The position numbers were made by a program, and so were the translations under genes. Positions 30,691 to 58,615 of a DNA stretch of 64,000 bases are shown one piece after another. The notes under the pieces are model-generated. The model was not told the origin of the DNA. It did not search any database and worked only from the letters and a program-made list of their open reading frames with translations. The DNA is taken from assembly GCA_030430575.1 (NCBI GenBank), contig JAUIKF010000016.1:62001-126000 (forward strand). The letters run 5' to 3'. The stretch's first letter is position 1; every line of letters starts with the position of its first letter. This stretch comes from Bacteroidia bacterium. Its GTDB lineage: Bacteria > Bacteroidota > Bacteroidia > J057.

Positions 30691-30914
30691 GAGACCGCTC
30701 GCCCTTCGGGCTCGCTGCGAGAACCGAGACCGTTCGTCGCCCTGCTCCTCACTACGAGACCGCTCGCCTTTCAGGCTCGCTGCGAGACTAGAGACAAGAA
30801 AAATGCTTTTAGTCTCGAAGCTCGGTGAGTCTTCGAGCCGAGCGGTCTCGGTTCTCGCAGTGAGCGCCAGCGAACGGTCTCGCAGCGAGGGCTGTCTTCA
30901 GCCCGAGCGGTCTC
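30691..30914. repeat. Modular hairpin element, GAGACCGCTCG family (copy C1)
   Basis: It begins GAGACCGCTCGCCCTTCGGG and ends in the complement GAGCGGTCTC (30905-30914). The centre is CTAGAGACAAGAAAAATGCT then TTTAGTCTCG. Each arm has several modules GAGAxCG(C/T)TCG...CTCGCTGC, each with its own small GC-rich palindrome (such as CGCCCTTCGGGCTCG). It supplies the stop codon of the WbqC-family gene (30898-30900). Confidence 0.9.
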
Positions 30915-31518
30915 CTTCCGCCAACACACGCCTACTCTCAGGCCCTTCATTGCACAGCAAATCAATGATGGACAAGTCTGGCTCAAACCCCTCAAAGACC
31001 TGCGGATATGGGATTGGCTGATACCAGGCGGGCCACTGCTCACGTCGCGGGTGAAAGTCCAGGCGAAGATCTCTAGCTATCGTTTCAGCATATAAGTGGA
31101 TTGGGGTATCTAATGTTTCGATCGGCGTGGTGATAGACAGCAGTTTTGCGAGCATCTGGATGATGTCATAATTGAGTTGCCAAAGATGGTCATAAGGCTG
31201 TTCAAAAAAGGGCTTGAAATAATCAGCGTAATAGTCGAAGTAAGGTGAGTTTTTGTAGGAAAAATAAATGGAGCGCCAATGCCCTCGTTGCCATTTCTCC
31301 TGGTAGACGATTTTCTTTTCCCGAACGTTGACACTGTCCTGACGGCGAGAGACAGGCACACTGAGTGTCAATACGCCATTAGCTCCGCGGATCATCATCC
31401 GATTGGTATAGTGCTGCTTCACATAAGGTGCTTGTAGATCAAGCAACACTCGATCTGCTTGGACACATGCGGTAAACCATGAGATGGGTGGGAAGTAGTA
31501 TAAGGGGAGAAGCCACAT
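30898..31518 (-). CDS. WbqC-family protein
   Basis: This is a 206-residue protein from ATG 31518 (MWLLPLYYFPPISWF); the frame to 31566 reads through repeat H. WbqC family landmarks are the N-terminal YFPPISWF, then HYTNRMMIRGANGVLTLSVP, EKWQRGHWRSIYFSYKNSPY, then FDYYADYFKPFFEQPYDHL and the C-terminal YPQVFEGFEPDLSIIDLL. Members occur in polysaccharide or O-antigen loci and some Bacteroidota; the biochemical function is not established. The last codons (GDRSG-stop) come from hairpin element C1, so the native C-terminus has probably been replaced by a few repeat-encoded residues. It is on the same strand as ribBA. Confidence 0.88.
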   Translation of the reverse strand: MWLLPLYYFPPISWFTACVQADRVLLDLQAPYVKQHYTNRMMIRGANGVLTLSVPVSRRQDSVNVREKKIVYQEKWQRGHWRSIYFSYKNSPYFDYYADYFKPFFEQPYDHLWQLNYDIIQMLAKLLSITTPIETLDTPIHLYAETIARDLRLDFHPRREQWPAWYQPIPYPQVFEGFEPDLSIIDLLCNEGPESRRVLAEGDRSG

Positions 31519-31520
31519 GG

Positions 31521-31655
31521 AAGAATTAAAATGAAAATAAGAATTAAAATGAAAATAAAATGGCAATAATGGGTTGAATTATTAACCCATGATTTTTTTG
31601 TATAAATGATTCATATTTTAATTTTCATTTAGATTTTCATTTTGATTTATTCTAT
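31521..31655. repeat. Hairpin spacer, AATTAAAATGAAAAT family (copy H)
   Basis: GAATTAAAATGAAAATAAGA then ATTAAAATGAAAATAAAATG (31524-31562) faces CATATTTTAATTTTCATTTA then GATTTTCATTTTGATTT (31611-31648). Inside the loop is GGGTTGAATTATTAACCC. The rest of the spacer up to 31807 is AT-rich promoter-like DNA with nothing else evident. Confidence 0.8.
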
Positions 31656-31807
31656 TGGGTGATATTTTTCTCTATCTCCCGTCTTTAATTGTGTAATGAA
31701 GCCAACAGGATAATCTTTAGAAGTATTATCTTTATGTGTTTCTTGAGAATGAATTCTGAAAATCCCACAAACAAACCCTGGCACAGGGATGAAAGTTAAT
31801 AGAAAAT

Positions 31808-33271
31808 ATGAAAAAACTACTGCTATCCATCACGATCCTCCTTCTCTGCACCAGCCTCCGGGCAGGAGATGTGGAGTTTTACCTCGACTATGCACGGTTT
31901 CAAGGGCCTGATGATCAGCCTTATGTGGAGGTATACTTGTCCATAGATGCTACTTCGGTGTCTTACAAGCCCACTGAAGCTAGCACTTGGCAAGCTTCTG
32001 TCAATATCCAGCTCCAGGTGTTTCAGTTGGTAGGCAAAGATTCCGTGGCAAAGTTCACGGATAACTACAACTTGCTCAGCCCACAATTTCCAGATACGAC
32101 TTTGGAGTATACCCGGCAGAACTTTGTCGAGATGCGTCGCATCCCGCTAGCGCCTGGCGAGTACCTCGTCCAGGTGATGATGAAGGACAACCAAGACGAC
32201 GGAGGGACCCCCGTCGTGAATTTTGCTGAATTTGAACTGGAGGCTTCAAACGGGACGGATTTCCATTTCAGCGACCTGGAATTTGTGGCGCGTGTCACGA
32301 AGAGCGACCAGGAGAGTATTCTGAACAAAAACGGCTATGAGATCGTGCCATTTGGCATCAATTCCAATTTTGTCGACCAAAAGAAACTGGGTTTTTACCT
32401 CGAATACTACCATGCAGACAAGGTCTTTAAGGATGATTTTTATGCGCAAGCGACTATCCTGCAAGGGGATCGGCCCTTATTGATGTATGATATTACCCGA
32501 AAAAAATCCCCCAAACCGATCGACATTTTCTCTGGTGAATTTGATATTGAAAAGCTTCCTTCTCAGACCTATCGGCTTCAAGTGAAATTGTTCAATAAAG
32601 AACAGCCTGAAGGGAAAGTCATGAATAAAACTTTCTATGTAGCCAATTCTAAGGTAATGCCTGATATGGCAGAGTATAGCCTTAGCCGGAGCGAATCAGA
32701 GTTTCTGAATGAATATAGTGAAGAGCAGCTTGACTATTATATCAAAACATTAATCCATATCAGTACAGAAGGGGAAATACGGTTTGCAAAAGCCTTAGAG
32801 ACATTTGATGATAAGAAAAATTACCTGTTTGCATTTTGGGAAAAACGCTTGTCTGCGGATAAAACCGTTGAAGGCTTGTGGAAAGGACATTTATCTGCCT
32901 TGGACTATACCAATGAGATGTTCAAATCCGTGCTTCGAGATGGCTGGATGACGGATCGTGGGCGTGTATTCCTCCAATATGGGATTCCAAGCGACATCGA
33001 ACGCTTTATGAGGGAGGCCGATAGGCTGCCACATGAGATTTGGAAGTATGACAAATTAGGGGCACAAGCACAGGTGATCTTCGTATTCCTCGATGATGAC
33101 CTCGCCACCGACGAGTATCCCCTCATTCACTCCAATAAGTATGGAGAACTACAGAACTTTGGTTGGGAGACCATGCTCGAAGATGGGCGCACGCCGCTTC
33201 AAGAGTCGAATCGTACGCGAGACGATTACGAAAAGAACCGATCGCTGATTCGAGACACAGGGAGGAATTAA
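31808..33271 (+). CDS. GWxTD domain-containing secreted protein
   Basis: The protein has 487 residues with a signal peptide (MKKLLLSITILLLCTSLRAG). The name-giving motif is Gly379-Trp-Met-Thr-Asp383 followed by RGRVFLQYGIPSDIER. N-terminal beta-sandwich segments (VEFYLDYARFQGPDDQPYVE, then VYLSIDA) and a central helical region complete the architecture typical of Bacteroidota/Ignavibacteria GWxTD proteins. The function of the family is unknown; it is predicted to be periplasmic or outer-membrane associated. It is followed by a TTGAAC-array hairpin and the acyltransferase gene on the same strand. Confidence 0.9.
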   Translation: MKKLLLSITILLLCTSLRAGDVEFYLDYARFQGPDDQPYVEVYLSIDATSVSYKPTEASTWQASVNIQLQVFQLVGKDSVAKFTDNYNLLSPQFPDTTLEYTRQNFVEMRRIPLAPGEYLVQVMMKDNQDDGGTPVVNFAEFELEASNGTDFHFSDLEFVARVTKSDQESILNKNGYEIVPFGINSNFVDQKKLGFYLEYYHADKVFKDDFYAQATILQGDRPLLMYDITRKKSPKPIDIFSGEFDIEKLPSQTYRLQVKLFNKEQPEGKVMNKTFYVANSKVMPDMAEYSLSRSESEFLNEYSEEQLDYYIKTLIHISTEGEIRFAKALETFDDKKNYLFAFWEKRLSADKTVEGLWKGHLSALDYTNEMFKSVLRDGWMTDRGRVFLQYGIPSDIERFMREADRLPHEIWKYDKLGAQAQVIFVFLDDDLATDEYPLIHSNKYGELQNFGWETMLEDGRTPLQESNRTRDDYEKNRSLIRDTGRN

Positions 33272-33278
33272 GAGAAGA

Positions 33279-33388
33279 CAAACTCAAGTTCAAACTCAAA
33301 CTCAAGCTCAAAGTATCTTCTTGAACTTGAACTTGAACTTGAACTTGAACTTGAACTTGAACTTGAACTTGAACTTGAACTTGAACTT
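33279..33388. repeat. Hairpin spacer with TTGAAC tandem array (copy E3)
   Basis: The left arm is ACAAACTCAAGTTCAAACTC then AAACTCAAGCTCAAAG (33282-33318). The right arm is about eleven nearly perfect tandem copies of the hexamer TTGAAC (33325-33386). Arm lengths differ, so the right arm has expanded beyond its partner. It lies between the GWxTD stop and the acyltransferase start. Confidence 0.9.
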
Positions 33389-33404
33389 TCCCTAACTTTG
33401 CGGC

Positions 33405-34316
33405 ATGTATGCCCCACTATATTACCTCATTAAAGGCAGCCTATACTTATTCAGTAGGCTGCCTTTTTGGGTGATGTACCGAATCAGTGAGGTGTTGTTT
33501 GTAATAGCCTTTTATGTAGTGGGGTATCGGAAAAAAGTGGTACTGGACAACTTGCAAAAGGCATTTCCTGAAAAACCCCTCCAAGAGATCAAAACGATCC
33601 GCAGACGCTTTTATCTTCACCTCTGCGACCTGCTCGTCGAATCTCTCAAAGGTGTCACCTTGAGTGCTCGCCAACTCGAAAAGCGCATGCGCTTTGACAG
33701 TCCAGAAGTCGTCGATGCCGTCGCCAAGAGTGGGCGCAGCGCCATCATCATCGCCTCTCACTACGGCAATTTCGAATGGACCAATGCCTGCATTGACTAC
33801 CACGCAGGGACTGTGCCCACTTTCACCATCTACCACGAACTGAAAAACCCCTATTTTGAGCGGCTGATGCGTGGCATCCGTACGCGCTGGGGTACCCAAT
33901 TGATCCCCAAACAGACGGCCTTTCGCGCTGCGCTGCGCGAACTCAAAGGCCATTGCATGATTGGCTTTGTCAGTGACCAGTCACCTAGCAGGCGCAAGCA
34001 GCTTTACTTCAGCCAATTCCTCGGTCGTCCTACGGCCATGCATGAAGGGGCGGCGATGATTGCCGTAGGACGCAATATCCCCGCATACTTTGCGGATGTC
34101 AGGAAGATCAAACGTGGGCATTACACTTGTACCCTTATCCCTATTCCCACCGAAACCTATGCTGCTACCAAGGATGTTCATGGCTTTACCGATCACCACG
34201 CTGCTATGCTGGAGGCTGTCATTCGTGAGGAGCCAGCCTATTGGCTATGGTCTCATCGGCGCTGGAAGCATGCGCCGAGAGAGGGAGATGAGGTGGGGGA
34301 CGGGTTAAGCGTTTAA
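33405..34316 (+). CDS. LpxL/HtrB-type lysophospholipid acyltransferase
   Basis: This is a 303-residue integral or peripheral inner-membrane acyltransferase. An N-terminal hydrophobic segment (YYLIKGSLYLFSRLPFWVMY) is followed by the LpxL-type catalytic region: ASHYGNFEWTNACIDYH (the HxxxxD/E motif as HYGNFE), then YHELKNPYFERLMRGIRTRW and FVSDQSPSRRKQLYFSQFLG. The C-terminal EEPAYWLWSHRRWKH matches the family end. It probably adds a secondary acyl chain to lipid A. A different phospholipid or ornithine-lipid acceptor is possible. It may be co-transcribed with the GWxTD gene. Confidence 0.9.
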   Translation: MYAPLYYLIKGSLYLFSRLPFWVMYRISEVLFVIAFYVVGYRKKVVLDNLQKAFPEKPLQEIKTIRRRFYLHLCDLLVESLKGVTLSARQLEKRMRFDSPEVVDAVAKSGRSAIIIASHYGNFEWTNACIDYHAGTVPTFTIYHELKNPYFERLMRGIRTRWGTQLIPKQTAFRAALRELKGHCMIGFVSDQSPSRRKQLYFSQFLGRPTAMHEGAAMIAVGRNIPAYFADVRKIKRGHYTCTLIPIPTETYAATKDVHGFTDHHAAMLEAVIREEPAYWLWSHRRWKHAPREGDEVGDGLSV

Positions 34317-34411
34317 TTCGTTCTGGGATGAAACACAATCAGCATAGCTTGGGGTTGGTGGAAAGTGTATTGAGCTTGGATGATTTATTCAAACCCTAAA
34401 ACCCTCCCCTC

Positions 34412-35479
34412 ATGCAAAACAGCATCCCATGTACTTACATGCGCGCAGGGACCTCCAAAGGCCCCTTCCTTGACTTGCGGGACTTGCCGCAAGACAGCGA
34501 GGAACGCAATCAAGCCTTGCTGCGCATCATGGGTTCTCCTGACAACCGACAGATTGACGGCATAGGCGGAGCCACACCTACCACCAGCAAAGTAGTGATG
34601 GTCCAACCCTCTACACGACCAGGTATAGATGTCGATTACCTATTTGCCCAGGTCTTTATCGACAAGCCTATTGTCGACACCAAACCCACTTGTGGCAATA
34701 TGATGAGCGGCGTGGCACCCTTTGCTATCGAAAAAGGCTGGGTACAAGCTAGACATCCTGAAACGACTGTCAAGATTTACAATATCAACACCGACTCGAC
34801 CATTGAGATGGTGGTACAAACCCCGAATGGAGGAGTGAATTATACGGATGGTGACTTTGTCATAGATGGGGTACAAGGGACTGGCGCACCCATCTTGATG
34901 CGTTTGTCAGGCATCGCTGGCGGCGCTACTGGCGAGCTTTTCCCGACGGGAAATCGGCGTGATGTGATAGATGGCATAGAAGTTTCTATTGTGGATGCGG
35001 GGAACTTACTCATGCTACTGAAGGCAGAAGCTTTGGGGTTGAATGGGACTGAAGGGAAGGCGTATTTTGAGGGGAATAAGGCATTTATGGCAAAAATAGA
35101 AGCCCTTCGATTGAAGGCGGGCAGGATGGCAGGACTGGGCGATGTGTCTGAAAGTGTCCTGCCCAGGATAAGCATCCTTTCTCCTCCACGCAATGGGGGA
35201 ACGATTAAGTCTCAGTACTTTACCCCGCACACCTTTCACCCCACTCACGCCGTGAGCGGCGCTATTTGTATCGGAACTGCCACCAAGGCAGCAGAAACGG
35301 TGGCGTCAGAGATTGCCCATTTATCCGAATCCTCCACCAAGGACATTGTCGTCGAACATGTCGCCGGAAAAATTCCTGTGAAGATCGAAGTAGCAGGATC
35401 AGGGGCTGATTTTGAGGTCATCCATGCTAGTTCCTGGCGGACAGCGCGGAAGCTGATGGAGGGAAGAGTGTTCTTTTGA
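34412..35479 (+). CDS. PrpF-family isomerase (4-oxalomesaconate tautomerase-like)
   Basis: This is a 355-residue PrpF-fold protein related to diaminopimelate epimerase. Landmarks are the start IPCTYMRAGTSKGPFLDLRD, IDGIGGATPTTSKVVMV, then DTKPTCGNMMSGVAPFA, which carries the conserved Cys, and HPTHAVSGAICIGTATKA. Known members are PrpF (aconitate isomerase in the 2-methylcitrate cycle) and GalD (4-oxalomesaconate tautomerase in gallate degradation). The neighbourhood has neither prpC/acnD nor gallate genes, so the substrate is open. It is a single gene, followed by a cluster of stem-loops. Confidence 0.9.
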   Translation: MQNSIPCTYMRAGTSKGPFLDLRDLPQDSEERNQALLRIMGSPDNRQIDGIGGATPTTSKVVMVQPSTRPGIDVDYLFAQVFIDKPIVDTKPTCGNMMSGVAPFAIEKGWVQARHPETTVKIYNINTDSTIEMVVQTPNGGVNYTDGDFVIDGVQGTGAPILMRLSGIAGGATGELFPTGNRRDVIDGIEVSIVDAGNLLMLLKAEALGLNGTEGKAYFEGNKAFMAKIEALRLKAGRMAGLGDVSESVLPRISILSPPRNGGTIKSQYFTPHTFHPTHAVSGAICIGTATKAAETVASEIAHLSESSTKDIVVEHVAGKIPVKIEVAGSGADFEVIHASSWRTARKLMEGRVFF

Positions 35480-35482
35480 AGA

Positions 35483-35748
35483 AGGTTTAAGGGTTCAAGC
35501 GTTGGGGCTGCTCCGGTAACTCCTTTTTAAAGGAGTTTTGCCTTCTTGCGACGGGTTGAAACCCAGTCGCAATGGTAAAATGACGCGGAAAAAACTATTG
35601 CGACGCGGCGTTCGACTGAGCTCACGCCGAAGTCTTTAGTCCGTCGCAAAAAGCCTAAAAGTCAAAATTGACTTTCCAGTGTGGACCCCCACGCTGTCGA
35701 GGATTTCCGGATTGTGGAGCGGCTCTTTGCGTAATCCTCGACCAAGAG
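35483..35748. repeat. Spacer with three stacked stem-loops
   Basis: After a GGTTTAAGGGTTCAAGCG word, there are three structures. First, ACTCCTTTTTAAAGGAGT (35519-35536). Second, TTGCGACGGGTT (35555) with AACCCAGTCGCAA, followed by a longer ATTGCGACGCGGCG...TCCGTCGCAA. Third, a perfect 10-bp stem GTCGAGGATT (35696-35705) and AATCCTCGAC (35733-35742). The last abuts the sulfatase stop codon at 35749. Together they could terminate both convergent genes. Confidence 0.7.
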
Positions 35749-37134
35749 TCACCGCCCCTTGCTCCGCTTCCAATCTTCAATCTGACTCGTCAATTCTTCG
35801 ACCAGCTCTGCATTCTGCTCCGCCACATTTTCCTCATTGCGTGGATCCTTTTCCATGTCAAATAGCGCCTTAGTTCCTAGCGTCAGGTTCCATTTAAAAA
35901 ACCATTGCTCATTCCTCAGCCAATACCCCTCGACCGTTTTGCCCATCATATCCCCTTCCCAGCGCATTTGATCAATATTTCCTATGATTTCTCCCCGTAG
36001 ATGGGAAGCTTTCCCTTCAATCACAGGCCTATACGACTGACCAAAATAGGTGCCAGGGACAGGAAGGCCCAGGTAATCCAAAATGGTCGCAGGAATGTCT
36101 GCACTATGCATCAAGTCTTGCTTGACTACACCTGCTTCAATATGCCCTTTCCACGAAAAAATAATCGGTGTACGAAAGGACTGGTCGTACATGGAAAGCT
36201 TGCCTTTGTCACCTCCATTGTGCCAACGAAGGGAGTCATGCCGAAACTCCTGATCGGGATTTTGTTCCCAGCCATTGTCATTCACATAGATAAATAAGGT
36301 ATTGTCAAATTCTTCCTTTTCCTTCAAATACCGCGTCAGTTCCCCTACGCCCTCATCAAACCAGGTACAGTTGGCGTAATAGCGCTTGGCCGATTCTGTC
36401 ATGTCCTCATTGCGGTAGCGATTGTAATAAGCTTCAGGTGCGTCAAAAGGATAATGTGGCAGTTCTGGTGCATACCAGATGAAAAAAGGCGCTTCGCTGT
36501 TTTTATCGATGAAGTCATAGACTGGTTCCATCGTGGCGCGCGCCAGCTCCAAGCCCGATCCGCCCATAAATTGTTTGAACCATTTGCTCCCATTTTCCCT
36601 GTCCTTCACTGTCCATCCTGTCGTCATGCCTTCCGAAAAACCGCCGTTTTCATACGAGTATTCCCACCATTTCCCGCCCTGAAAGCTCACATAGCCGCTT
36701 TCGGCTAGGAGTTTAGGCAAAGTCTTAAAATGTTGCATGGCATGAAACCGAAACTCCGTAGCAAATGCTTGCCATTCCTCTGGCGTCAACTCCGCATGCG
36801 CTTCCTTTTCTTGATCGATCAGCGCATTGACTTCTCTGTCATATTCGATGGGCAGGGTCCCAGTCATCAGAGATTGAAGAGACGGCCGACAGTGATTGGC
36901 AGGGACATAGCCTTGGGTGAAAAGGGTACCGCTGGCCGCGAGACTGTCCATATGGGGGGTATGGACATAGTCTGCCCCCATAAATCCAAAGTAGGGATAG
37001 CCTTGGTCGTCGCCGATGAGGAGGACGATGTTGGGGAGGGTGGGGGATTCAGAGGGATTCTCTGGGGACTCTTCGGTGGGCGTACAAGCTATAAGGAAAA
37101 TTAAAAGGGAGAAGATGGAGCAAAAGGATTTCAT
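35749..37134 (-). CDS. Sulfatase (arylsulfatase A-like) lipoprotein
   Basis: The protein has 461 residues from ATG 37134; a longer frame to 37221 is not needed. The lipoprotein signal is SIFSLLIFLIACTPTEE. The alkaline-phosphatase superfamily fold starts with NIVLLIGDDQGYPYFGFMGA (metal-binding Asp pair). The formylglycine site is Cys82 in NHCRPSLQSLMTG; the classical motif is C-x-P-S-R, so Leu replaces Arg at the fifth position, as in some sulfatase subfamilies. The C-terminal part has FIYVNDNGWEQNP and HSADIPATILDYLGLP. It desulfates glycans or other sulfate esters outside the cytoplasm. No SusCD or glycosidase genes are nearby. Confidence 0.9.
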   Translation of the reverse strand: MKSFCSIFSLLIFLIACTPTEESPENPSESPTLPNIVLLIGDDQGYPYFGFMGADYVHTPHMDSLAASGTLFTQGYVPANHCRPSLQSLMTGTLPIEYDREVNALIDQEKEAHAELTPEEWQAFATEFRFHAMQHFKTLPKLLAESGYVSFQGGKWWEYSYENGGFSEGMTTGWTVKDRENGSKWFKQFMGGSGLELARATMEPVYDFIDKNSEAPFFIWYAPELPHYPFDAPEAYYNRYRNEDMTESAKRYYANCTWFDEGVGELTRYLKEKEEFDNTLFIYVNDNGWEQNPDQEFRHDSLRWHNGGDKGKLSMYDQSFRTPIIFSWKGHIEAGVVKQDLMHSADIPATILDYLGLPVPGTYFGQSYRPVIEGKASHLRGEIIGNIDQMRWEGDMMGKTVEGYWLRNEQWFFKWNLTLGTKALFDMEKDPRNEENVAEQNAELVEELTSQIEDWKRSKGR

Positions 37135-37198
37135 AGAATAAAAGTAATTTGTGCGAAAGGGAGAATCATCTTTTCGAAAAAATAGCCTCAAAAAACCG

Positions 37199-37206
37199 TA
37201 TCTTTG
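37199..37206 (+). promoter_or_regulatory. Possible Bacteroidota -7 box upstream of the ybaB-like gene
   Basis: TATCTTTG matches the Bacteroidota -7 consensus TAnnTTTG and lies 29 nt before the start codon. A weak -33-like TTTTCG is at 37171-37176. Transcription start is unproven. Confidence 0.45.
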
Positions 37207-37235
37207 ACCCTTATTAACCAAAATAGACTGCTAAT

Positions 37236-37574: not shown

Positions 37575-37576
37575 GA

Positions 37577-37662
37577 ATGTTTTGTGTTTTGGGTTTTGTG
37601 TTTCGAGTTGAAGCTAGACCCAAAACTCAAAACTCAAAACTCAAAACTCAAAACTCAAAACC
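37577..37662. repeat. Hairpin spacer with AACTCAAAACTC tandem arm (copy G)
   Basis: The left arm TGTTTTGTGTTTTGGGTTTT then GTGTTTCGAGTTG (37579-37611) faces six tandem copies of CAAAACT (heptamer or so, 37619-37662). It spans exactly from the ybaB stop to the glycosyltransferase start. Confidence 0.85.
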
Positions 37663-37664
37663 GT

Positions 37665-38687
37665 TTGAACGCTCCCCCTGTTTCTGTCCTGATCCTCAAC
37701 TGGAATGGACGCGCTTTATTGGGACAATTTGTCCCAAAAGTGCTTGCCTCCACCTACCCCAACATGAAAGTGCTGGTGGCGGACAATGGCTCTACAGATG
37801 ATAGCCGCGAATTCTTGGCGGCCCATTTCCCGGAAGTAGAAGTATTGGCCTTGGAAGAAAATCACGGTTTTGCGCAAGGGAACAATCTTGCCCTTCCTCA
37901 TATCGATTCACCGTATGTCGTTTTGCTGAATAGCGATGTGGAAGTGACGCCTGGCTGGCTGGAACCCATGGTGGAGACCATGTTGTCGGATGAAAACATC
38001 GCTGTTGTCCAGCCCAAGGTGATGGCTTATCACCAAAAGGATCATTTTGAAGATGCAGGCTCGGCAGGCGGCTATATCGATGCCTTGGGGTACCCCTTTT
38101 GCCGTGGGCGGCTGTTTTTTACCCTGGAAAAAGATGAAGGACAATACGACCAAGCCCATGAAATCTTCTGGGCGAGTGGGGCCTGCTGCCTAATAAGGAA
38201 GTCAGTTGTAGACAAAATAGGACTGTTTGAACCTTCCTTTTTTGCCCATATGGAAGAGATAGACTTCTGCTGGCGTGCCCAAAACTTTGGATATAGACTC
38301 ATGTATGAGCCACGCAGTACCATTTACCATATAGGTGGCGGTACGCTGAAAAAGGGAAGCCCACGAAAAACCTTTCTCAATGCCCGCAATAGCTTGGCAA
38401 TGATGTATAAAAACCTGCCGAAGGGGCAGGTATTCCCAAAGATATTTACTCGCTTGTGTCTGGACGGGGTTTGGGCTGCGCGTGCGCTAGCTCAGCTGGA
38501 CTTTGGCACCATAGGCGCTATCTTCAAGGCGCACATGCACTTTTATGGCAAATTGGGGTTTTGGCGAAAAAGGAGGAAGGAGATTTATCAGGGGAAAAAA
38601 ATCAGCCCTCCTAAGCATGGCTATTACCCCAAAAGCATCGTCTGGCAGTATTTTATCAAGGGGAAAAGGAAGTATTCAGAGCTGTAG
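37665..38687 (+). CDS. Family 2 glycosyltransferase
   Basis: The protein has 340 residues, with TTG at 37665 taken as start (LNAPPVSVLILNWNG); the ATG at 37584 would add about 27 residues encoded by the repeat (KLKTQNSKLKTQN). The GT-A fold has VSVLILNWNG, VADNGSTDDSREFL, HGFAQGNNLAL and the metal-binding region VLLNSDVEVTPGWLE. The rhamnosyltransferase-like middle is FWASGACCLIRKSV, and FFAHMEEIDFCWRAQNFGYR is the usual catalytic block. It transfers a sugar to a surface polysaccharide or lipid-linked acceptor at the inner membrane. Its stop codon overlaps the first base of hairpin element C2. Confidence 0.9.
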   Translation: MNAPPVSVLILNWNGRALLGQFVPKVLASTYPNMKVLVADNGSTDDSREFLAAHFPEVEVLALEENHGFAQGNNLALPHIDSPYVVLLNSDVEVTPGWLEPMVETMLSDENIAVVQPKVMAYHQKDHFEDAGSAGGYIDALGYPFCRGRLFFTLEKDEGQYDQAHEIFWASGACCLIRKSVVDKIGLFEPSFFAHMEEIDFCWRAQNFGYRLMYEPRSTIYHIGGGTLKKGSPRKTFLNARNSLAMMYKNLPKGQVFPKIFTRLCLDGVWAARALAQLDFGTIGAIFKAHMHFYGKLGFWRKRRKEIYQGKKISPPKHGYYPKSIVWQYFIKGKRKYSEL

Positions 38688-38930
38688 AGACCGCTCCCTG
38701 CGGTCGCTGCGAGACCGTTCGCGTCTTCGACACTCACTGTGAGACCGCTCACGCCGAAGACGGCCTTCGCTGCGGGATCGCTCGAAGACTCGCTGCGAGA
38801 CTAAAGGCAAATATCTTCTCTTGTCCCGCAGCGAGGTGAGTCTTCGAGCCGAGCGGTCTCGCAGTGAGTCGTGAAGCGGCGAACGATCTCGCTTCTCGCA
38901 GCGAGGGCCGTCTTCGGCCCGAGCGGTCTC
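38687..38930. repeat. Modular hairpin element, GAGACCGCTCG family (copy C2)
   Basis: It starts with the G of the glycosyltransferase stop (TAG/AGACCGCTCC) and ends GAGCGGTCTC at 38921-38930. The centre is GAGACTAAAGGCAAATATCT then TCTCTTGTCCCGC. The arms contain palindromes such as GGGCCGTCTTCGGCCC. Confidence 0.9.
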
Positions 38931-38935
38931 CCCAT

Positions 38936-38962
38936 AAAAAAAACCCGACATGGCTGTCGGGT
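38936..38962 (-). terminator. Intrinsic terminator for the TonB/PKD operon
   Basis: Read on the minus strand, the stem CCCGACA-GCCA-TGTCGGG is followed by eight T residues (the A-tract at 38936-38943). It lies 77 nt beyond the stop at 39039 and separates that operon from element C2. Confidence 0.8.
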
Positions 38963-45310: not shown

Positions 45311-45586
45311 AAGACCGCGTGGGAAGAGACCGCTCAGGCCGAAGACGGCCTTCGCTGTCAGACCATTCGTCGTTTCACTCCTCATTCCGAGACCGCTTAG
45401 GCTTGCGCCTTCGCTGTCAGATCGTTCGCCTTTTAGGCTCACTGTCAGACTAAAAGACCTTTTCAGACATAACGAAATTCTTGTCTCGCAGCGAAGGCGA
45501 GTCTTCGAGCCTGAGCGGTCTCGCAGTGAGGCCATCAGGCCGAACGGTCTCGCCTCTCGCAGCGAGCCTGAAAGGCGAGCGATCTC
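45311..45586. repeat. Modular hairpin element, GAGACCGCTCG family (copy C3)
   Basis: It begins AAGACCGCGTGGGAAGAGAC with CGCTCAGGCCGAAGACGGCC and ends GAGCGATCTC at 45577-45586. The centre is CAGACTAAAAGACCTTTTCA then GACATAACGAAATTCTTGTC. It is the only copy lying between divergent genes, so neither end touches a stop codon. Confidence 0.88.
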
Positions 45587-49937: not shown

Positions 49938-49942
49938 GTTTG

Positions 49943-49980: not shown

Positions 49981-49987
49981 TTCATAG

Positions 49988-52150
49988 ATGAATCTAAGAC
50001 GCTTGATATACCTATTCTTATGTATGCCCATTACACTTTTCGGGCAGAAGGGGGACTTTACATGGGTGTTTGGGGATTCCTGTGGTCTAAAGTTTAGTTC
50101 TACACAGAGTGACCCAGTGTTTTTTAGAACACCTATTCCAAAAAGGATTGGGAATAATGAAAACTTCGCATCTATTTCGGATTCTAGTGGGAATTTGTTG
50201 TTTTATTTAGGGTATGCTCCTGGATTTTCTCAAATAAGTACTTCTAGTCATCAAGCAATGGATAGTGGTTCACATTTATCTACTAATTCTTCTGTTACGA
50301 ATGGAGCCATCATTATTGCTGTTCCTAATGCCCCTAATTTGTATTATTTGCTTTATATCAATAGTCGTTATTTCTACTATGCTACCATAGATATGGGTAA
50401 GAATAATGGAAAAGGGAAAGTGATTAATAAAGATAATTACTTATATCAACCTCCTCTGGGAGAAAACATGGACGAAAAATTGATGGCTATACGACATGGA
50501 AATGGAGTAGACTGGTGGGTCATGATCCATAAATCTAATACAAATCAATTTATCAAATACCTTGTCACTGCTAGCAATATATCAGGCCCGTATTTCCAAA
50601 GGATAGGAACCTCCAATGGACGAGGGTATGCTCCTAGTGGGGAGATATCTGCAAACCCTAATGGGAATAAGCTTGCCACAGTTACAGGTAATGGCTTAAT
50701 CGAATTGTTTGATTTTGACAGGTGTACAGGAGAATTGTCAAATCCTATTTCCTTAGGACATGATAAGCCTCAATACGACCTTGCCAAAGAATGGGACAAT
50801 TTCTTTTATGGCTGCTCCTTTTCACCTGATGGGAGTAAGTTTTATGTATCTAATACTTGGGAATTGTATCAATTTGACCTAAATGAAGCTGATATTAAAG
50901 CCAGTAAAACTTTAGTCTGGAAGCATCCGGAGAGAAATATTCACAATGTTATTGGGCAGCATCAACTTGGCCCTAATGGAAAGGTTTATATAGCACATTG
51001 GGTAGTTATCCCTCACAAATACAATCAGAGCCTTTCTGTTATCCACAATCCCAATGAGAAAGGGCAAGCCTCAAACTTTCGATCAGCAAATTTTTTCTTA
51101 GAAGGCCAATTATCTAATTATGGCCTCCCCAACTTCCCCAACTACCGCCTCGGGGCGCTCCCCCTCCCCCCAGCAGACGCTGGGCCAGACACCCAAACCG
51201 CCTGCGCTGCGGATTCGGTGCAGATCGGTGGGCCACCCCAACCCCACTGCCTCTACGCCTGGTCGCCCAGCGAAGGACTCAGCGATGCCAGCATCGCCCA
51301 GCCATGGGCTTCGCCAGAGACCAGCATGGCTTATGTCCTGACGATCATCGATACGACACGATCTTGCCGAAATGTGAATACCGATACGGTCTGGGTGGAG
51401 GTGCAGATGCCTGTTCCAAGCTTTAGCGTGGAAGCAGGAGAAGGGGATACGATCTGTCCTGGAGCTGCAATGCGACTGGGCCTGCCGCCTGTCCCAGGCT
51501 ACCGCTATCGCTGGTGGCCCGGCGAAGGGCTAGATGACCCGCTTGCCGCCCAGCCCCTGGCGCGGCCTGAGCAGAGTCAGTACTACTACCTGACCGTCAC
51601 GGATACGCGCCGTGTATGTGACCATATCGCCACAGACAGCGTCTGGGTGGAGGTCCACCAGCCGCAATTGGCGGAGGCGGGGCCAGACGTGAAGCTCTGC
51701 GAAGGCAAAGAGATGGTGGAAGTCATTGGCACGCCAGGAATGGCTGACTGGACCTACAGTTGGTCTCCGCCGATCGGGCTGGATGATGCCCGCCAGGCGC
51801 AGCCACAGGTCTTTACTCAGACCAGTATGGTTTACCATATGACGGTTGTCAAAGACACTTTTTGCATAAGCCACGACTCAGTGCTTGTGACAGTGGAGCC
51901 TTGTGAACACATCTACCTCCCCAATGCCTTCACGCCCAATGGCGATGGGCTGAACGAAACCTTTGAAGTGATCAATTTACCCCGAAATTGTCACCTCCAG
52001 GTCTGGAACCGATGGGGCAATCTGGTTTTTCAATCGGCTGATTACCAGAATGATTGGCGGGCAGAAGGTTTGTCGGAAGGGGTGTATGTTTTTCGGCTGG
52101 TGACAGCTGATGGGAGAGAATACACGGGGAGTGTGACGGTCATGCGGTAG
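49988..52150 (+). CDS. Propeller-type secreted protein with type B (gliding-motility-associated) C-terminal domain
   Basis: The protein has 720 residues with a signal peptide (LIYLFLCMPITLFGQKGDF). Residues about 20-385 form a beta-propeller-like domain (DSSGNLLFYLGYAPGF, CSFSPDGSKFYVSNTWELYQ) ending NYGLPNFPNYRLG. Three modules of about 75 residues follow, with AGPD or AGEGD, Cys and YxWxPxxGLxD...AQPxAxP. The C-terminus is the type B T9SS domain: LPNAFTPNGDGLNETFEV, LQVWNRWGNLVFQS and GVYVFRLVTADGREYTG. Base composition changes abruptly near 51120, from AT-rich to GC-rich, exactly at the domain boundary. The stop codon abuts hairpin element C4. Confidence 0.9.
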   Translation: MNLRRLIYLFLCMPITLFGQKGDFTWVFGDSCGLKFSSTQSDPVFFRTPIPKRIGNNENFASISDSSGNLLFYLGYAPGFSQISTSSHQAMDSGSHLSTNSSVTNGAIIIAVPNAPNLYYLLYINSRYFYYATIDMGKNNGKGKVINKDNYLYQPPLGENMDEKLMAIRHGNGVDWWVMIHKSNTNQFIKYLVTASNISGPYFQRIGTSNGRGYAPSGEISANPNGNKLATVTGNGLIELFDFDRCTGELSNPISLGHDKPQYDLAKEWDNFFYGCSFSPDGSKFYVSNTWELYQFDLNEADIKASKTLVWKHPERNIHNVIGQHQLGPNGKVYIAHWVVIPHKYNQSLSVIHNPNEKGQASNFRSANFFLEGQLSNYGLPNFPNYRLGALPLPPADAGPDTQTACAADSVQIGGPPQPHCLYAWSPSEGLSDASIAQPWASPETSMAYVLTIIDTTRSCRNVNTDTVWVEVQMPVPSFSVEAGEGDTICPGAAMRLGLPPVPGYRYRWWPGEGLDDPLAAQPLARPEQSQYYYLTVTDTRRVCDHIATDSVWVEVHQPQLAEAGPDVKLCEGKEMVEVIGTPGMADWTYSWSPPIGLDDARQAQPQVFTQTSMVYHMTVVKDTFCISHDSVLVTVEPCEHIYLPNAFTPNGDGLNETFEVINLPRNCHLQVWNRWGNLVFQSADYQNDWRAEGLSEGVYVFRLVTADGREYTGSVTVMR

Positions 52151-52444
52151 AAGACCGCTCGGGCCGAAGACGGCCCTCGCTGCGAGATCGTTCGCCTTGC
52201 CGGCTCACTGCGGGATCGTTTCGGCCTGACGGCCTTACTGCGAGATCACTCGAAGACTCGCTTTGAGACTAAAGGCAATTTCTTTCTCTTGTCTCATAGC
52301 GAGGTGAGTCTTCGAACCGAGCGGCCCTTCGACATGGCTCAGGACAAGTCTCACAGTGAGTGCCGAAGGCGCGAACGATCTCGCAGTGAGGGCGCAGCCC
52401 GAACGGTCTCGCAGCGAAGGCGAGTCTTCGAGCCTGAGCGGTCT
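52150..52444. repeat. Modular hairpin element, GAGACCGCTCG family (copy C4), fills a convergent gap
   Basis: AAGACCGCTCGGGCCGAAGA follows the TAG of the upstream gene directly. The other end, read on the minus strand, is TTAGACCGCTCAGGC, where TAG is the stop of the kinase gene. The centre is GAGACTAAAGGCAATTTCTT then TCTCTTGTCTC. The whole 292-nt gap is repeat. Confidence 0.92.
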
Positions 52445-55400
52445 AACCCTCCAACTGCTTCATCGGAATCCGAATGACAAATTCGCTGCCCTCTCCTGGG
52501 GTACTGGTGGCAGTGATATCTCCTTTATGTTGCTGGATAATGCCATAGGAAATGGAAAGGCCGAGGCCTGTACCTGCGCCGACATCCTTGGTCGTAAAAA
52601 ATGGCTCAAAAATATGCTCTAGCACTTCCTCTTTCATGCCCGAACCCGTATCGCGAATGCTGATACGGAGCATCTCGCCTTCCTCTTCTTTGGTAGAGAT
52701 AAAGATTTCTCCTTTCTCTGGCATTGCATCTAGCGCGTTATTCAGGAGGTTCATAAAGACCTGGTTGAGCTTGCCGGGGAGGCATTCGATGCGTGGAATG
52801 GTCGCATAGTCTTTGTGGACCGTGATACGCCCCTTAAACTTATTATTGAGCAAGGTTAATGTACTGTCTATACCGTCATGGACATCGGCCATTTTGAAGT
52901 CTTGCTCGTCCAGGCGAGAGAAGTTTTTGAGTCCTAGGACGATCTCCTTGGTACGGTTGGCCCCATCTCGCATGCCTGTCAATAACATCTCTATTTCTTC
53001 AAAAAGAAAATCGGTGTCTATTTCCTCCCCAAATTCTTTTACCTCTTTTAGGCTCTCAGAAATATTGGTAGAAGTCTCTAACGCTTTCACCTTCATGAGA
53101 AGCTCTTTGATGTCTTCTATATCGCGGGTGAGCGGGCCAATATTTCCTGTGACGAAGTTAATGGGGTTATTGATCTCATGGGCGATTCCAGCGGTGAGCT
53201 GGCCAAGGGATGCCATCTTTTCGGATTGCACGAGTTGGGACTGGGTGGATTGCAGTTTGCCTAATGTAGCGCCCAACTGACGGTTTTTGCGATCGAGTTC
53301 TTTGGTACGTAGTCTTACCTTCTCATCCAAATGCTCATACAACCGCGCATTCTCAAAAGAAATGGCGATCTGGGAGGAAAGCAGGCGAAATATCTCTGTT
53401 CGATCTTGGGTAAAAGCGCCTATGGTCAGGTTATTTTCCAGGTAAATAAGCCCTGTAAGGTGGCCTTTATGGGCTATGGGATAACATAAGACGGATTTGG
53501 GCTTATGTTCGCGGATGTAGGCATCTTGCTGATAAGCTTCGTTTTCGGCAGCGTGCTGTAGGACAATGGCTTTTTGTGTCCGTGCCACGTAGTTCACGAT
53601 GGCAGGAGAGAGAAAGGAAGCTTCCTCCAAGGGGATGCGCTCGCGGACCTTAATCCCTGACTGAGCGTCTCCATGTGCCAGGACAGAGAGTTTGCCTTGT
53701 TGATTTTCGATAAATGCGCCTCTTTCGGCCCCCGCATTTTCCATCGCGATCTGCATCATTTTCTCCAACAAATTACTCAAAACCACCTCGCCTGACAGCG
53801 CGATAGATGCTTTGGTAATACTCTCTAAGTCAATGCCTTTCAGGCTTTCTGTGCTGGACGTCGAGCGAGTGCTCGATGAGGCACTTGAGCTGCCCTTGCG
53901 AACTGCCCGCCCGATGAAGTGTGGATACCGCTGTTCCAAAAAGGCTGTTTTGGCCGCTGCGCCCCAACTGCGATAGACTTTCCAAGCTTGCAATAAGTGG
54001 GTTTCAGCCAAAAAGCGATGCCCTTGCTCCCTGAAAAATTTCCCAGTCAACTCCCAGGCGAGGGCTTCTTCATTCATATATTCGTGTTCCTTGGCAAACC
54101 GAATGGCCTTTTCATATAACTCCCGAGCGATGATCTCCTCCCCTAGCACACGGTGCTTTTCGGCCTCCACCAAATAATACTTGTGCAGGTGATTGGTAGG
54201 CGCATACTCTGCCAGCATCGATAGCTCGTCGAGGCATTCTTCTACCCGTACCATGAGGACCTTCTGTGCGCGTGGTCGCGCCTCAGGATAGCGTGCCAGG
54301 CACAGGAGGGCATCATACATCCAGTGATGACTGCCTTTGATGAGTTCTGCTTTCTCCTGGATTTCAGATGCCTGGGTGGCATACTGTTGCCCTTCCTCAT
54401 AGGCTTCAAACAAGTAGGCCAGGATCATCTTATTCAGGTAAAGATTGTATAATCCTGGGTGATCATGCATGAGCTGATGATGCTCCACCATATCTTCTTC
54501 GGTATAGGCCTTTCCCTGCAGCAAATAAGGTTTAGGACAAGGGTGAAGAAGGTTTTGAATGACTTGAAGGGCCAAATTCAAATAATTGAGGCCAATATGG
54601 CGTCCTCTCTGAGCTACATCACGGATATACTGGAGCAGTTTTGCTTCTAGGCCGCTGAGTTCTGTACCTGACAGGTAAGCGTAGTATACATATTGAATGA
54701 TGCAAAAAGTAGCATTGCTGAGGTCTCCAGCGTTTAATCCACTTTCAAATCCTTCCAACAGGGGAGGTAGGCAATCTCTCAGATGAAGTTGAAATGGGGC
54801 AAGGGAGGAATAAAAAGAATAGTAGGTCCGTGCTTTGAGGGATTCGGACTGAAACCTTTCCAGCAATGCCAGCCCCATCTCAGCGTAAGCATATCCTTTG
54901 TCTATTCGCCCAAAGCGGGTCGCAAGCATGACCCCGTATCCGATAAATGCTGCTGCAGAGTTTGGCGACAAACCACTTTCAATCGAAATGGCTACTTGCT
55001 TAAAAGCCAATAGGGGGGGGAGGTAGGATTGGGTGATATGTACAGGCGGTTCGATGACAGAGATCACCCGCATCGCTGCCAGCTTCAGCGGATCAGTCAT
55101 TTCTGGCAGGCGCATGATGTCTTCCTTGCTGAGACCTCGTAATTGCCAGCGGCTTTTGAGGTAGGCCAGGCGTGTATCGATTTCTCGTGGATTGGAAGGA
55201 AAGGAAATGCCTAATAACTTTAAAAAAGCTAAGCCTTCTGCCACGGCCTCAGCCAGTTTATTTTGGGCCAAAAGCGCCTGGGTGCGCAATTCATAAGCCT
55301 TCACCTTGTCCACGAGGTTGACAGACTGGCTGATCAAGCGTTGGCTGAGTTCCATGAGCAGGCTATAATTGCCTTCCAGGAAAGCTGCTTCCATCGCCTC

Positions 55401-57752
55401 ACTTGCCAGCCCATGGTTGAGGCTGTAATTGTTTTCCCAGCCAAAGGCGGCAAGCAAGTCTAGACCTTGCTGGAGGTAGCTAAGGGCTGTTTTATAGGCG
55501 GCAGCCGAGTTAGCCTTTTGCCCAGCGATGTGATGTAGACGAGCGAGTTTCCTTTTCTCTTCACGTCCTTCCACCAAATCGATCCCCCGGTTCCATTGAC
55601 CTACGATATCAAAAATATGATCCCGGAGGGCCTCCTCATTCTTTTGCTTCTCTAATTTTTCCAGGACCAACCGACCGATCTTCAAGTGTAGAGCTGGGGT
55701 GATATTTTCGGAGATAAGGGAATAAACAGCTTGACGAATGCGGTCATGGGTAAAACTGAATGAGGGTTCCCCAGCAGTATTTACGTCAGTCAAGTCAGCT
55801 ACCAATCCCTCATCGATGGCCCGTGTCAAGGCCGCATTCAGCTCCTGATCCGATACTTCATGAATGGCTTGTAAAGTGCTGAAAGCAAACTGATTGCCAA
55901 TACAAGCCGCTTTTTTGAGGGTTTCCTGGGTGGCAGCAGGCAGGCGTTGGATCTTGCCAGCCATGAGTTCTACCACATTGTCCGAGATGTTGAGTTGCTG
56001 AATCGCATTGTGATCCCATATCCAGCGGCGGTCCTTTTGGGAAAAAGTGAGGAGTTCTTTTTCATACAGCGACATGAGCATCTGCCGCACAAAAAAAGGA
56101 TTTCCCTGCGTTTTGGTATAGACCAATTCTGCCAATAGTTGACAATCAGCTTTCCCGCATCGCAGCGTAGCACTGATCAGCTCGGTGACGGCATCTTGTG
56201 AGAGATTGCTTATTTCCAGTTGTTCTACCAAGGCGCCTTTGTCAAGCAGGCGGTCATAGGCTTTCAGCAGGGGATGATCAGCTGCGATTTCATTGTCTCG
56301 CAAGGCCGTGATAATCCAGAAATACTGATTGTCGGGGTGGGTGAGGAGCAGTTCGATGAGATCGATAGAGTCTCCGTCAGCCCACTGACAGTCGTCGAGG
56401 AAAAAGACCAATGGATGCTGGGCATCCGAAAGGGCCTTGATGAAATTCAAGAAAGTATAGCGAAGGCGGTTTTGCGCTTCGGTAGCCCCTACTTCTGGCA
56501 CATCGGGCTGCTGCCCGATGATGAGTTGAAGCTCTGGGACGACATCTATAAGTAGTTTCCCATTTTCTCCTACAGCATCGAGAATCTTTTTTTTCCAGGC
56601 TTCTAGTCGATTACTGCTTTCGGTGAGGAGTTGGCGTACCAATTGCCCAAAAGCGCGGTTGGTACCTTGATAAGGCACGCTGCTTTGGAGTTGGTCAAAA
56701 TGCCCCATAGCAAAATAGCCGCCCTTGCGACCTACGCGGTTGCGAAATGCATTGACCAAGGCAGATTTCCCGATGCCCGCATAGCCTTTGATCATCACCA
56801 ATTCTACTGTGCCCAAGGTCACTCGATCAAAAGACTTGATCAGGTGCTTAAATTCTTTCCGCCTTCCATAAAGGGCCTCTGGAAATTCAAGTTTCCCCGT
56901 AAGGTCCTTTGTCCCCAATTCAAAGTCATGGATTTCTCCTTCACTCTCCAATAATTTCTGACAATGCTGCAAATCTGCCAAGAGGCCGCTTGCCGACTGA
57001 TAGCGCGCATCAGGGTTCTTAGCGAGCAATCGCAGGATCAATTCAGAAAGGACATGAGGAATGTCTCCTTGGATAGCTTCTGGCGGCGTAGGAGGCGTCG
57101 CCAGATGGGCATGCACTAGCTCTGCAGGGTCTTTCCCCTCGAAAGGCAACCGCCTGGTAAAAAGCTCATACAGGCTCACGCCAAAAGAATACAGATCGGA
57201 ACGAGTATCTACTGCTTGATTGACACGGCCAGTCTGTTCTGGAGAAATATAGGCCATCGTGCCTTCCAGGGAGGATGGACGGGTATTTTCATCTCCTTTT
57301 GTTTCTTGCTTTACTGCAAAAGCAAAGTCGATAATCTTCACTGTCGGCCCTTGAGGTTTGGGGACAATGAGGATATTGTTGCTGGTAAAGTCACGGTGAA
57401 TGATGCCTTGGCCATGAATCGCTTCCAAAGCTTTGGCTACTTCTACAGCTACAGCGAGTCGATCTGCAAAGGGTTTTTCTTCTTTGACAAAAGCTTGCTT
57501 AAGGGATGCACCTGGCACGTGTTCCAAAAAGATGGCGGGGCGATCTTCGAACCTTCCCATTCGATAGGCTTTCCGCACGCATTCCAGCGCCAACTGGTGC
57601 GTAAGCGCATATTCATTCTGCAAATAAGCCAACTGATGCGGAGCGGGATCTACCTCTTTGAGCATCTTGATGACTACAGGCTGGCCTTCATCTTGTGTGT
57701 CGAGATAGAGATTCGACTTGGTGCCGTCATATATGAGTGTGAGACCTTCCAT
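52443..57752 (-). CDS. Giant trifunctional serine/threonine kinase - AAA ATPase - GAF - sensor histidine kinase
   Basis: This is a 1769-residue cytoplasmic signalling protein. Residues 1-270 are a Ser/Thr kinase: Lys29, His119-Arg-Asp121, Asn126, Asp142 in IIDFAFA (DFG variant) and GTMAYISPEQTGR. Residues about 290-620 are an AAA/predictor-like ATPase with Walker A GYAGIGKSALV and Walker B LVFFLDDCQWAD. A long helical TPR-like region follows. A GAF domain lies at about 1330-1470 (ENAGAERGAFIENQQGKLSV). A coiled coil leads to the histidine kinase, with phosphoacceptor His1525 in GIAHEINNPINFV and HATPase boxes NLLNNALDAMP, DTGSGM and GTGLGLSISYGI. No receiver or transmembrane segment is visible, and no cognate response regulator is nearby. 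Confidence 0.93.
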   Translation of the reverse strand: MEGLTLIYDGTKSNLYLDTQDEGQPVVIKMLKEVDPAPHQLAYLQNEYALTHQLALECVRKAYRMGRFEDRPAIFLEHVPGASLKQAFVKEEKPFADRLAVAVEVAKALEAIHGQGIIHRDFTSNNILIVPKPQGPTVKIIDFAFAVKQETKGDENTRPSSLEGTMAYISPEQTGRVNQAVDTRSDLYSFGVSLYELFTRRLPFEGKDPAELVHAHLATPPTPPEAIQGDIPHVLSELILRLLAKNPDARYQSASGLLADLQHCQKLLESEGEIHDFELGTKDLTGKLEFPEALYGRRKEFKHLIKSFDRVTLGTVELVMIKGYAGIGKSALVNAFRNRVGRKGGYFAMGHFDQLQSSVPYQGTNRAFGQLVRQLLTESSNRLEAWKKKILDAVGENGKLLIDVVPELQLIIGQQPDVPEVGATEAQNRLRYTFLNFIKALSDAQHPLVFFLDDCQWADGDSIDLIELLLTHPDNQYFWIITALRDNEIAADHPLLKAYDRLLDKGALVEQLEISNLSQDAVTELISATLRCGKADCQLLAELVYTKTQGNPFFVRQMLMSLYEKELLTFSQKDRRWIWDHNAIQQLNISDNVVELMAGKIQRLPAATQETLKKAACIGNQFAFSTLQAIHEVSDQELNAALTRAIDEGLVADLTDVNTAGEPSFSFTHDRIRQAVYSLISENITPALHLKIGRLVLEKLEKQKNEEALRDHIFDIVGQWNRGIDLVEGREEKRKLARLHHIAGQKANSAAAYKTALSYLQQGLDLLAAFGWENNYSLNHGLASEAMEAAFLEGNYSLLMELSQRLISQSVNLVDKVKAYELRTQALLAQNKLAEAVAEGLAFLKLLGISFPSNPREIDTRLAYLKSRWQLRGLSKEDIMRLPEMTDPLKLAAMRVISVIEPPVHITQSYLPPLLAFKQVAISIESGLSPNSAAAFIGYGVMLATRFGRIDKGYAYAEMGLALLERFQSESLKARTYYSFYSSLAPFQLHLRDCLPPLLEGFESGLNAGDLSNATFCIIQYVYYAYLSGTELSGLEAKLLQYIRDVAQRGRHIGLNYLNLALQVIQNLLHPCPKPYLLQGKAYTEEDMVEHHQLMHDHPGLYNLYLNKMILAYLFEAYEEGQQYATQASEIQEKAELIKGSHHWMYDALLCLARYPEARPRAQKVLMVRVEECLDELSMLAEYAPTNHLHKYYLVEAEKHRVLGEEIIARELYEKAIRFAKEHEYMNEEALAWELTGKFFREQGHRFLAETHLLQAWKVYRSWGAAAKTAFLEQRYPHFIGRAVRKGSSSASSSTRSTSSTESLKGIDLESITKASIALSGEVVLSNLLEKMMQIAMENAGAERGAFIENQQGKLSVLAHGDAQSGIKVRERIPLEEASFLSPAIVNYVARTQKAIVLQHAAENEAYQQDAYIREHKPKSVLCYPIAHKGHLTGLIYLENNLTIGAFTQDRTEIFRLLSSQIAISFENARLYEHLDEKVRLRTKELDRKNRQLGATLGKLQSTQSQLVQSEKMASLGQLTAGIAHEINNPINFVTGNIGPLTRDIEDIKELLMKVKALETSTNISESLKEVKEFGEEIDTDFLFEEIEMLLTGMRDGANRTKEIVLGLKNFSRLDEQDFKMADVHDGIDSTLTLLNNKFKGRITVHKDYATIPRIECLPGKLNQVFMNLLNNALDAMPEKGEIFISTKEEEGEMLRISIRDTGSGMKEEVLEHIFEPFFTTKDVGAGTGLGLSISYGIIQQHKGDITATSTPGEGSEFVIRIPMKQLEG

Positions 57753-57865
57753 GTGTAGCTATACCACTGTCAAGCAATCGAAGTTAGTGAAAAATTAGGT
57801 ACCACACCTAACGTGTGGGGAAAGGCCCCTGAGATGAAGGGAATGGCAGGAAAGAGATTGGAGAA

Positions 57866-57958
57866 TACTGATTGCAGAACAAGGATTTATGAAGGATTGT
57901 CAGCTAATAACCTCTTTGCCTTCCTCAATCTTAATTCCTTGTTCGATATTCATCAATC
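57866..57958. repeat. Hairpin spacer, GAATATCGAACAAGG family (copy B4), enters the DUF3052 gene end
   Basis: AATACTGATTGCAGAACAAG then GATTTATGAAGGATTG (57867-57900) faces CAATCTTAATTCCTTGTTCG then ATATTCATCAATCCC (57927-57961). On the minus strand the right arm encodes the last residues IDEYRTRN and stop of the DUF3052 protein. Confidence 0.8.
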
Positions 57959-58362
57959 CCTCGGTCTTTTACCCTGAATACAAATTTCAGCCCTGACCAA
58001 TCCTCGTCAACGGCGCATACTTTGACATCTACCAAGCCTATATTGAGTCCATGTTCGCGGATCAATTCTCGGTTGAGGTCGGTTTCAATCTTGGAAGCCT
58101 TTTTGGGCCAGGAAAGCCACAACATGCCCGCAGGCTTTAGGCGAGCTTTTAGTGTGGGGAGCAGTTCCAATAGGACCTGCTCTTCCTTGCAAAAAAGATG
58201 GATAAAATCCACTTTAGATGCATCGGCTTTCGCCACCTTCACGCCCTCGGGCAATGGTCCCAATAAGTCAAAATAGGCCTCTATTGGCTCAATCACGAGC
58301 ATTTCATAGCCGGCCTTGATGCCGAGCTTGCGTTGCAAGGGGGTGGATGAATAACCTGCCAT
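57931..58362 (-). CDS. DUF3052-family protein
   Basis: This is a 143-residue protein from ATG 58362 (MAGYSSTPLQRKLGIKAGYE), the usual start of this family. The longer frame to 58464 only translates element C5 (RSRSEGESS). The signature LWLSWPKKASKIETDLNREL with GLVDVKVCAVDEDWSGLKFV is characteristic. The family is small, cytoplasmic and of unknown function. The C-terminal tail IDEYRTRN after VFRVKDRG is encoded by repeat B4, so the native end was probably at or before KDRG. Confidence 0.9.
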   Translation of the reverse strand: MAGYSSTPLQRKLGIKAGYEMLVIEPIEAYFDLLGPLPEGVKVAKADASKVDFIHLFCKEEQVLLELLPTLKARLKPAGMLWLSWPKKASKIETDLNRELIREHGLNIGLVDVKVCAVDEDWSGLKFVFRVKDRGIDEYRTRN

Positions 58363-58374
58363 AATGGGGGAATA

Positions 58375-58615
58375 AGACCGCTCGGGCTTCGAAGACTCGC
58401 CCTCGCTGCGAGACCGGTCGCCCTTCGGGCTCCCTGCGAGATCGTTCGTCGCGGAGCTCCTCACTGCGAGATCGCTCGGTTCGAAGACTCACCTCGCTAC
58501 GAGACAAGAGAAGATTTTTGCCTTTAATCTCGCAGCGAGTCTTCGAGCGGTCTCGCAGTGAGTGCCGAAGGCGCAAACGATCTCGCTTCTCGCAGCGAGC
58601 GAAGCGAGCGGTCTC
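58375..58615. repeat. Modular hairpin element, GAGACCGCTCG family (copy C5)
   Basis: It begins AAGACCGCTCGGGCTTCGAA 13 nt upstream of the DUF3052 start. It ends GAGCGGTCTC at 58606-58615, immediately next to the phasin-like stop (TAA then GAGACCGC on the minus strand). The centre is GAGACAAGAGAAGATTTTTG then CCTTTAATCTCGC. Confidence 0.9.

Follow-up and report, generated by a model that had tools for sequence, protein, structure and literature searches.

A composite palindromic repeat that contacts genes at their stop codons and probably acts as a stop-codon donor in a Bacteroidia genome

The locus described here raises the question of why several copies of a large palindromic element should begin almost exactly where the neighbouring genes stop. 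The stretch of DNA analysed (64 kb; the window) belongs to a draft genome of 8.16 Mb in 127 contigs, which encodes the CHU_C type IX secretion signal domain, in keeping with a large-genome member of the Bacteroidota. The initial annotation had described five copies of a modular element in the window, all five adjacent gene 3' ends meeting the element at the stop codon, and had proposed either targeted insertion at gene ends or strong selection against any gap. All five copies are present (Table 1), the module pattern and the centre described for them are real, and the five stop contacts (30898, inside a copy; 38687, TA+G; 52150; 52443; 58616) are exact to the base claimed. The copy placed at 45311 also exists, but its clean left end is at 45326 and 45311 marks a degenerate outer piece at best; because this copy sits in a divergent spacer it has no 3' end to contact, and the five contacts therefore come from four copies only.

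Table 1. Copies of the GAGACC repeat and short-unit inverted-repeat spacers in the window.
Feature	Position	Orientation	Relation to neighbouring genes
Copy 1	30691..30914	.	codirectional gene 30898-31566 (-) ends inside, at the TGA of the outermost mini-palindrome GGGCTGAAGACAGCCC
Copy 2	38687..38930	+	gene 37584-38687 (+) ends in TAG, formed of TA and the first G of the element; a terminator-like hairpin lies in the 109 nt that separate the right end from the next 3' end
Copy 3	45326..45586	+	within divergent spacer; touches no gene 3' end
Copy 4	52151..52444	+	convergent genes on both sides, both stops touched: TAG ending at 52150, then AAGACC; minus-strand TAG starting at 52445 (contact at 52443, TTAG/ACC); embedded CCCTTCGACATGGCTCAGGACAAG
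Copy 5	58374..58615	-	gene 58616-58960 (-): TAA abuts GAGACC directly; next gene start 12 nt beyond the other end
Short-unit spacer	8460-8560		
Short-unit spacer	15717-15877		
Short-unit spacer	17000-17114		
Short-unit spacer	18111-18248		
Short-unit spacer	19422-19570		
Short-unit spacer	33272-33404		

Each copy is an imperfect dyad, in which module-bearing arms flank a conserved centre (GAGACTAAAGGCAA...CTTGTCTC). The module consensus is GAGACCGCTC-X-CTCGCTGC, also written GAGA(C/T)CG(C/T)TC-X-CTCGCTGC, in which each X forms a small palindrome; 102 distinct X were found among 254 modules, and pairing is kept in many of the variants (for example GCCC..GGGC/ACCC..GGGT and GGCCGAAGACGGCC/GGCTGAAGACAGCC). 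Modules match on the minus strand in the left arm and on the plus strand in the right, so that they run head-to-tail within an arm and are reversed only at the centre, and each end of the element reads GAGACC inward. Module number varies between copies, and a few copies retain a single arm. The centre recurs in either orientation and sets the direction of a copy, which is unrelated to that of the neighbouring genes (comparison of the two revealed no bias). From either strand the RNA can form a very stable hairpin starting at the stop codon; folding energies lay between about -105 and -170 kcal/mol among the copies that were folded, and two window copies had hairpin z-scores of -10.7 and -7.4. 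Some copies have pieces like CCCTGAGCCTGTCGAAGGG or CCCTTCGACATGGCTCAGGACAAG embedded in them (window 52325-52350; G000 C19:80825, C11:72671 and C64:8952), apparently another dispersed repeat nested inside.

Copies were counted in 1.53 Mb read contiguously, on contigs picked for holding matches and with gene calls made by the analysis itself. This sample contained 57 copies, 49 of which were full-length (169-302 bp, median 245 bp). Across the whole genome 565 sites matched the core 14-mer when as many as two mismatches were allowed, compared with 30 for a reversed-pattern control. Extrapolation puts the genome-wide number at roughly 150-300 copies (~174 from the match count, ~300 from length), a figure that is uncertain because the sampled contigs were chosen for matches. 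Identity between a copy and its nearest neighbour was at most 91% (median 83%), and there is therefore no sign of a recent burst. No match at the Rfam 15 gathering score was found within the 64-kb window.

Where a gene 3' end faces an intact element end, the stop lay at -1, 0 or +1 nt from it in 42/63 cases (26 at -1, as T+GA; 7 at 0, as TA+G; 9 at +1) and within -2 to +6 in 50/63. Gene starts, one mis-called case excepted, were 8-295 nt from the element, many at 12-17. The full-length copies comprised 26 between codirectional genes, 16 between convergent and 7 between divergent ones. Among the codirectional copies 25/26 lay within 6 nt of the stop. Had they been spread uniformly over the rebuilt spacers, 12.9 would be expected, and none of 100,000 simulations on that assumption gave more than 21 of 26. 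Random distances to stop codons are thus rejected for the sampled contigs, and the precision that the initial annotation had noticed is real; both the abundance of the repeat and its 3'-end contacts are far above chance. Three REP-like families that share this genome are not positioned at stops, which indicates that stop contact is no general trait of palindromic repeats here. The rebuilt spacers had a median length of 24 nt, against 94 nt in the same-genus relative and 134.5 nt elsewhere in the genome, which fits either spacer loss or insertion accompanied by deletion.

The earlier proposals did not consider that the element itself might supply the stops, and the reading frames and stop usage show that it supplies many of them; for these contacts the ancestral gene is not the source. 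The three frames in which genes meet the element were represented 34:16:10 (P = 4e-4), the commonest being that in which GA completes a TGA. The base before GAGACC was T in 28/32 in-frame contacts, compared with 16/41 ends facing a gene start (P = 3e-9), so that the T reflects the reading frame and is no sign of a target preference in general. The stops of contacting genes were TGA (31), TAG (18) or TAA (4, i.e. 4/53), a depletion of TAA (P = 3e-7), which is the commonest stop genome-wide (44%). For genes running past the element end, the outermost X mostly held a stop in the right frame, at most 20 nt in (GGCTGA, GCCTAA, GCTAAA), and at other ends such internal stops were present in 0/101 for frame A and 2/102 for frame C. 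The genes neighbouring the copies map to different contigs in the only same-genus genome; because gene order differs, no empty site could be read and comparison of these loci with the relative is limited to C termini. Contacting proteins ended earlier than their orthologues by a small margin and with few controls (mean -1.65 aa, compared with -0.53 in controls; P = 0.048). One protein, presumably a 3-hydroxyacyl-CoA dehydrogenase, ends GKGFY* where its orthologues read GKGFYDYSK/A*, and a second, which we take to be a DNA glycosylase, has lost 13 residues.

The arms of a copy tend not to match. An X was shared between the two arms of one copy once, compared with 7.7 expected on re-pairing arms (P = 0.0045); similar X were found between arms in 19 cases compared with 38 among re-paired arms; and arm complementarity was 34.1, against 40.1 +/- 1.6 for arms re-paired among copies. 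Avoidance of shared X indicates that long perfect inverted repeats are disfavoured, and selection for arm pairing is ruled out since arms are less complementary than re-paired ones. SbcCD of E. coli has a 246-bp interrupted palindrome among its targets (PMC3315005). An intact SbcC is encoded here (G000 C70:35510-38536, L210); searches of the assembly gave no SbcD, also when the protein of the same-genus relative served as query, although this relative and most members of the family encode one. Its absence may be a true loss, given that the assembly is 99% complete, the alternative being an assembly gap. Erosion of the flanks driven by SbcCD was set aside because SbcD was not found. Spacers with strong inverted repeats numbered 8/211 in the same-genus genome and 100/762 here, the GAGACC family excluded; a tie between the absence of SbcD and this palindrome load is a lead and not a result.

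We consider it probable that these copies represent a composite palindromic repeat family with BIME-like anatomy, most likely non-autonomous, that lives at gene 3' ends as a stop-codon donor. At the contacts a frame arriving with T becomes TGA, and one arriving with TA becomes TAG, at the first bases of the element; frames missing both end in the stop of the outermost mini-palindrome or at their own stop just upstream. New copies would land at gene ends or very close to them, the original stop would be replaced or lost together with most of the spacer, and copies would survive where the gene still terminates immediately; the mismatched arms may allow the repeat to be replicated. By analogy with work on E. 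coli REPs, ribosome release, mRNA ends or transcription may be affected. Copies inside 3' spacers are rarer than donation with random landing predicts, too few for such landing, and a further placement process is therefore needed, either integration aimed at termination sites or spacer loss. One alternative, that insertions arose by chance and survived only in tiny spacers that forced their ends onto stops, would partly explain the double contacts, in which both stops are touched by 13/16 copies between convergent genes, because convergent stops in the same-genus genome lie a median of only 9.5 nt apart. However, the placement of codirectional copies rejects uniform insertion in rebuilt spacers, and with it tight packing as a complete explanation; packing also leaves the frame and T biases unexplained, and we regard it as very improbable.

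Integration by a recombinase or transposase at a termination codon or one to three bases into it (T^, TA^ or after the stop), leaving the downstream spacer intact, would account for exact contact even where 74-295 nt of spacer remain on the other side, for the different placement of the other REP families of the genome and for the nine element ends that come right after a complete stop codon, since complete own stops directly before GAGACC fit targeting. However, target duplications of at least 3 nt were seen in 0/49 copies (chance alone would give 1.7 at 3 nt), a search for flanking inverted duplications around the copies found none, and the seven full-length copies in divergent spacers have no stop; the targeted insertion put forward initially is not demonstrated. 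Such integration also predicts neither the frame bias, nor the depletion of TAA, nor the stop-bearing outer mini-palindromes; the rebuilt spacers are shorter than ordinary and no enzyme was identified. It is in our view possible but doubtful. Unlikely, too, is a mobile palindrome of a class distinct from RAYT/REP that would integrate programmatically at termination codons by means of an enzyme and whose outer modules would evolve an in-frame stop for each host gene. Strong selection against any gap, the other initial proposal, fits the shortened spacers but could not be told apart from targeting. Another view is that the hairpin would be kept only if it starts at the stop, acting on translation termination or the mRNA 3' end. 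The strong hairpin beginning at the stop and the preserved mini-palindromes are consistent with this, as is the reduction of translation by E. coli REPs less than 16 nt from the stop (PMC12306157). Against it are the same seven divergent copies, the absence of an orientation preference and the low complementarity of the arms, which means that pairing of the whole hairpin is not maximised, and this kind of functional placement appears quite improbable.

Transposases were sought only as the Y1_Tnp type, of which the assembly has three genes. The GAGACC unit was absent from 1.5 kb (or to the contig end) around all three, and mobilisation of the repeat by a RAYT was rejected because none of these genes adjoins a unit. 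Two RAYT-like genes (L032, L033) are each flanked by a REP family of their own (GCGACGGGTTTAAACCCGTCGC; GGGCGGATTACGC...AATCCGCCC), and these REPs recur at window 35480-35748. The GAGACC repeat had no match in 59 other genomes searched as relatives and none in IMG/VR, and a GTDB scan gave only one exact 19-mer, in a MAG stretch without other trace of the element.

Several other repeats occur nearby. A 28-nt REP, GTAGGGTCAGGACATGTCCTGACCCTAC, occurs at 13 places in the contigs sampled (examples are G000 C11:91456, L066; C73:159084, L082; C64:4556, L070). In every copy it is centred exactly in a perfect and unique inverted repeat (6-16 nt), as though the REP had taken the place of a hairpin loop or had arisen by copying back; about one third of the GTAGAG REPs are likewise centred in an inverted repeat. 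Many other window spacers (examples in Table 1) consist of an inverted repeat with arms built from tandem short units (AATGATAG, TTGAAC, ATTGATTGATT and GTTCTAGG types), and these often begin at a stop codon, a contact that is less telling because the units carry stops themselves. Simple-unit inverted repeats of GGGTTTCGGGTTTTGGG type start at stop codons in the same-genus genome (G001; L145, L127, L161), so that unrelated sequences share this architecture. A tandem 52-mer (TTTTAGTCAACTGTAACCCCTAGC...) separates convergent genes at window 60400-60630.

The GAGACC repeat resembles known bacterial palindromic repeats but is unusual in its size, its modular build and the precision of its placement. 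REPs located between convergent and unidirectional genes are found near 3' ends, and the termini of GTAG REPs often give a TAG stop (PMC3733652); BIMEs are mosaics mobilised by RAYTs in which palindromes are preserved (PMC2817692); and ribosome stalling has been attributed to REPs that lie no more than 15 nt from a stop, as cited in PMC12306157. Like these, the GAGACC repeat is made of extragenic palindromic units in mosaic arrays, of high copy number and with preserved palindromes, and it is enriched where convergent or unidirectional genes have their 3' ends (by the contacts at 42/63 facing ends) and lies within the 15-nt distance from the stop. Unlike REPs and BIMEs, with their 20-40 nt units and GTAG/CGTC tags, its units end in GAGACC and whole elements are dyads of ~245 bp with head-to-tail modules in each arm, which reverse only at the centre where BIME mosaics alternate; the stop that it mainly donates is TGA, unlike that of GTAG REPs; and no cognate RAYT was found among the three Y1_Tnp genes of the assembly. 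Because the tag, the cognate RAYT and the alternating orientation all fail, we file it as a kind of extragenic palindrome and not as a REP. With MITE-like repeats such as ERIC and RU (PMC2229807, PMC2759123) it shares a short, non-coding, dispersed sequence with inverted ends, but it differs in having no target duplication or near-identical copies and in its variable module number, and a search limited to Y1 transposases gave no partner transposon. It documents in numbers how a repeat family takes over stop codons from its host, and it leaves a signature that can be read from the frame, the T before GAGACC, stop usage and the stop-bearing outer mini-palindromes. Its size is nearly equal to that of the interrupted palindrome, 246 bp long, placed in lacZ of E. 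coli (PMC3315005); unlike that artificial construct its copies are imperfect, and opposing arms that avoid matching may be a natural answer to palindrome instability. Together, the stop signature and the arm mismatch provide testable handles on how extragenic palindromes reach their sites.
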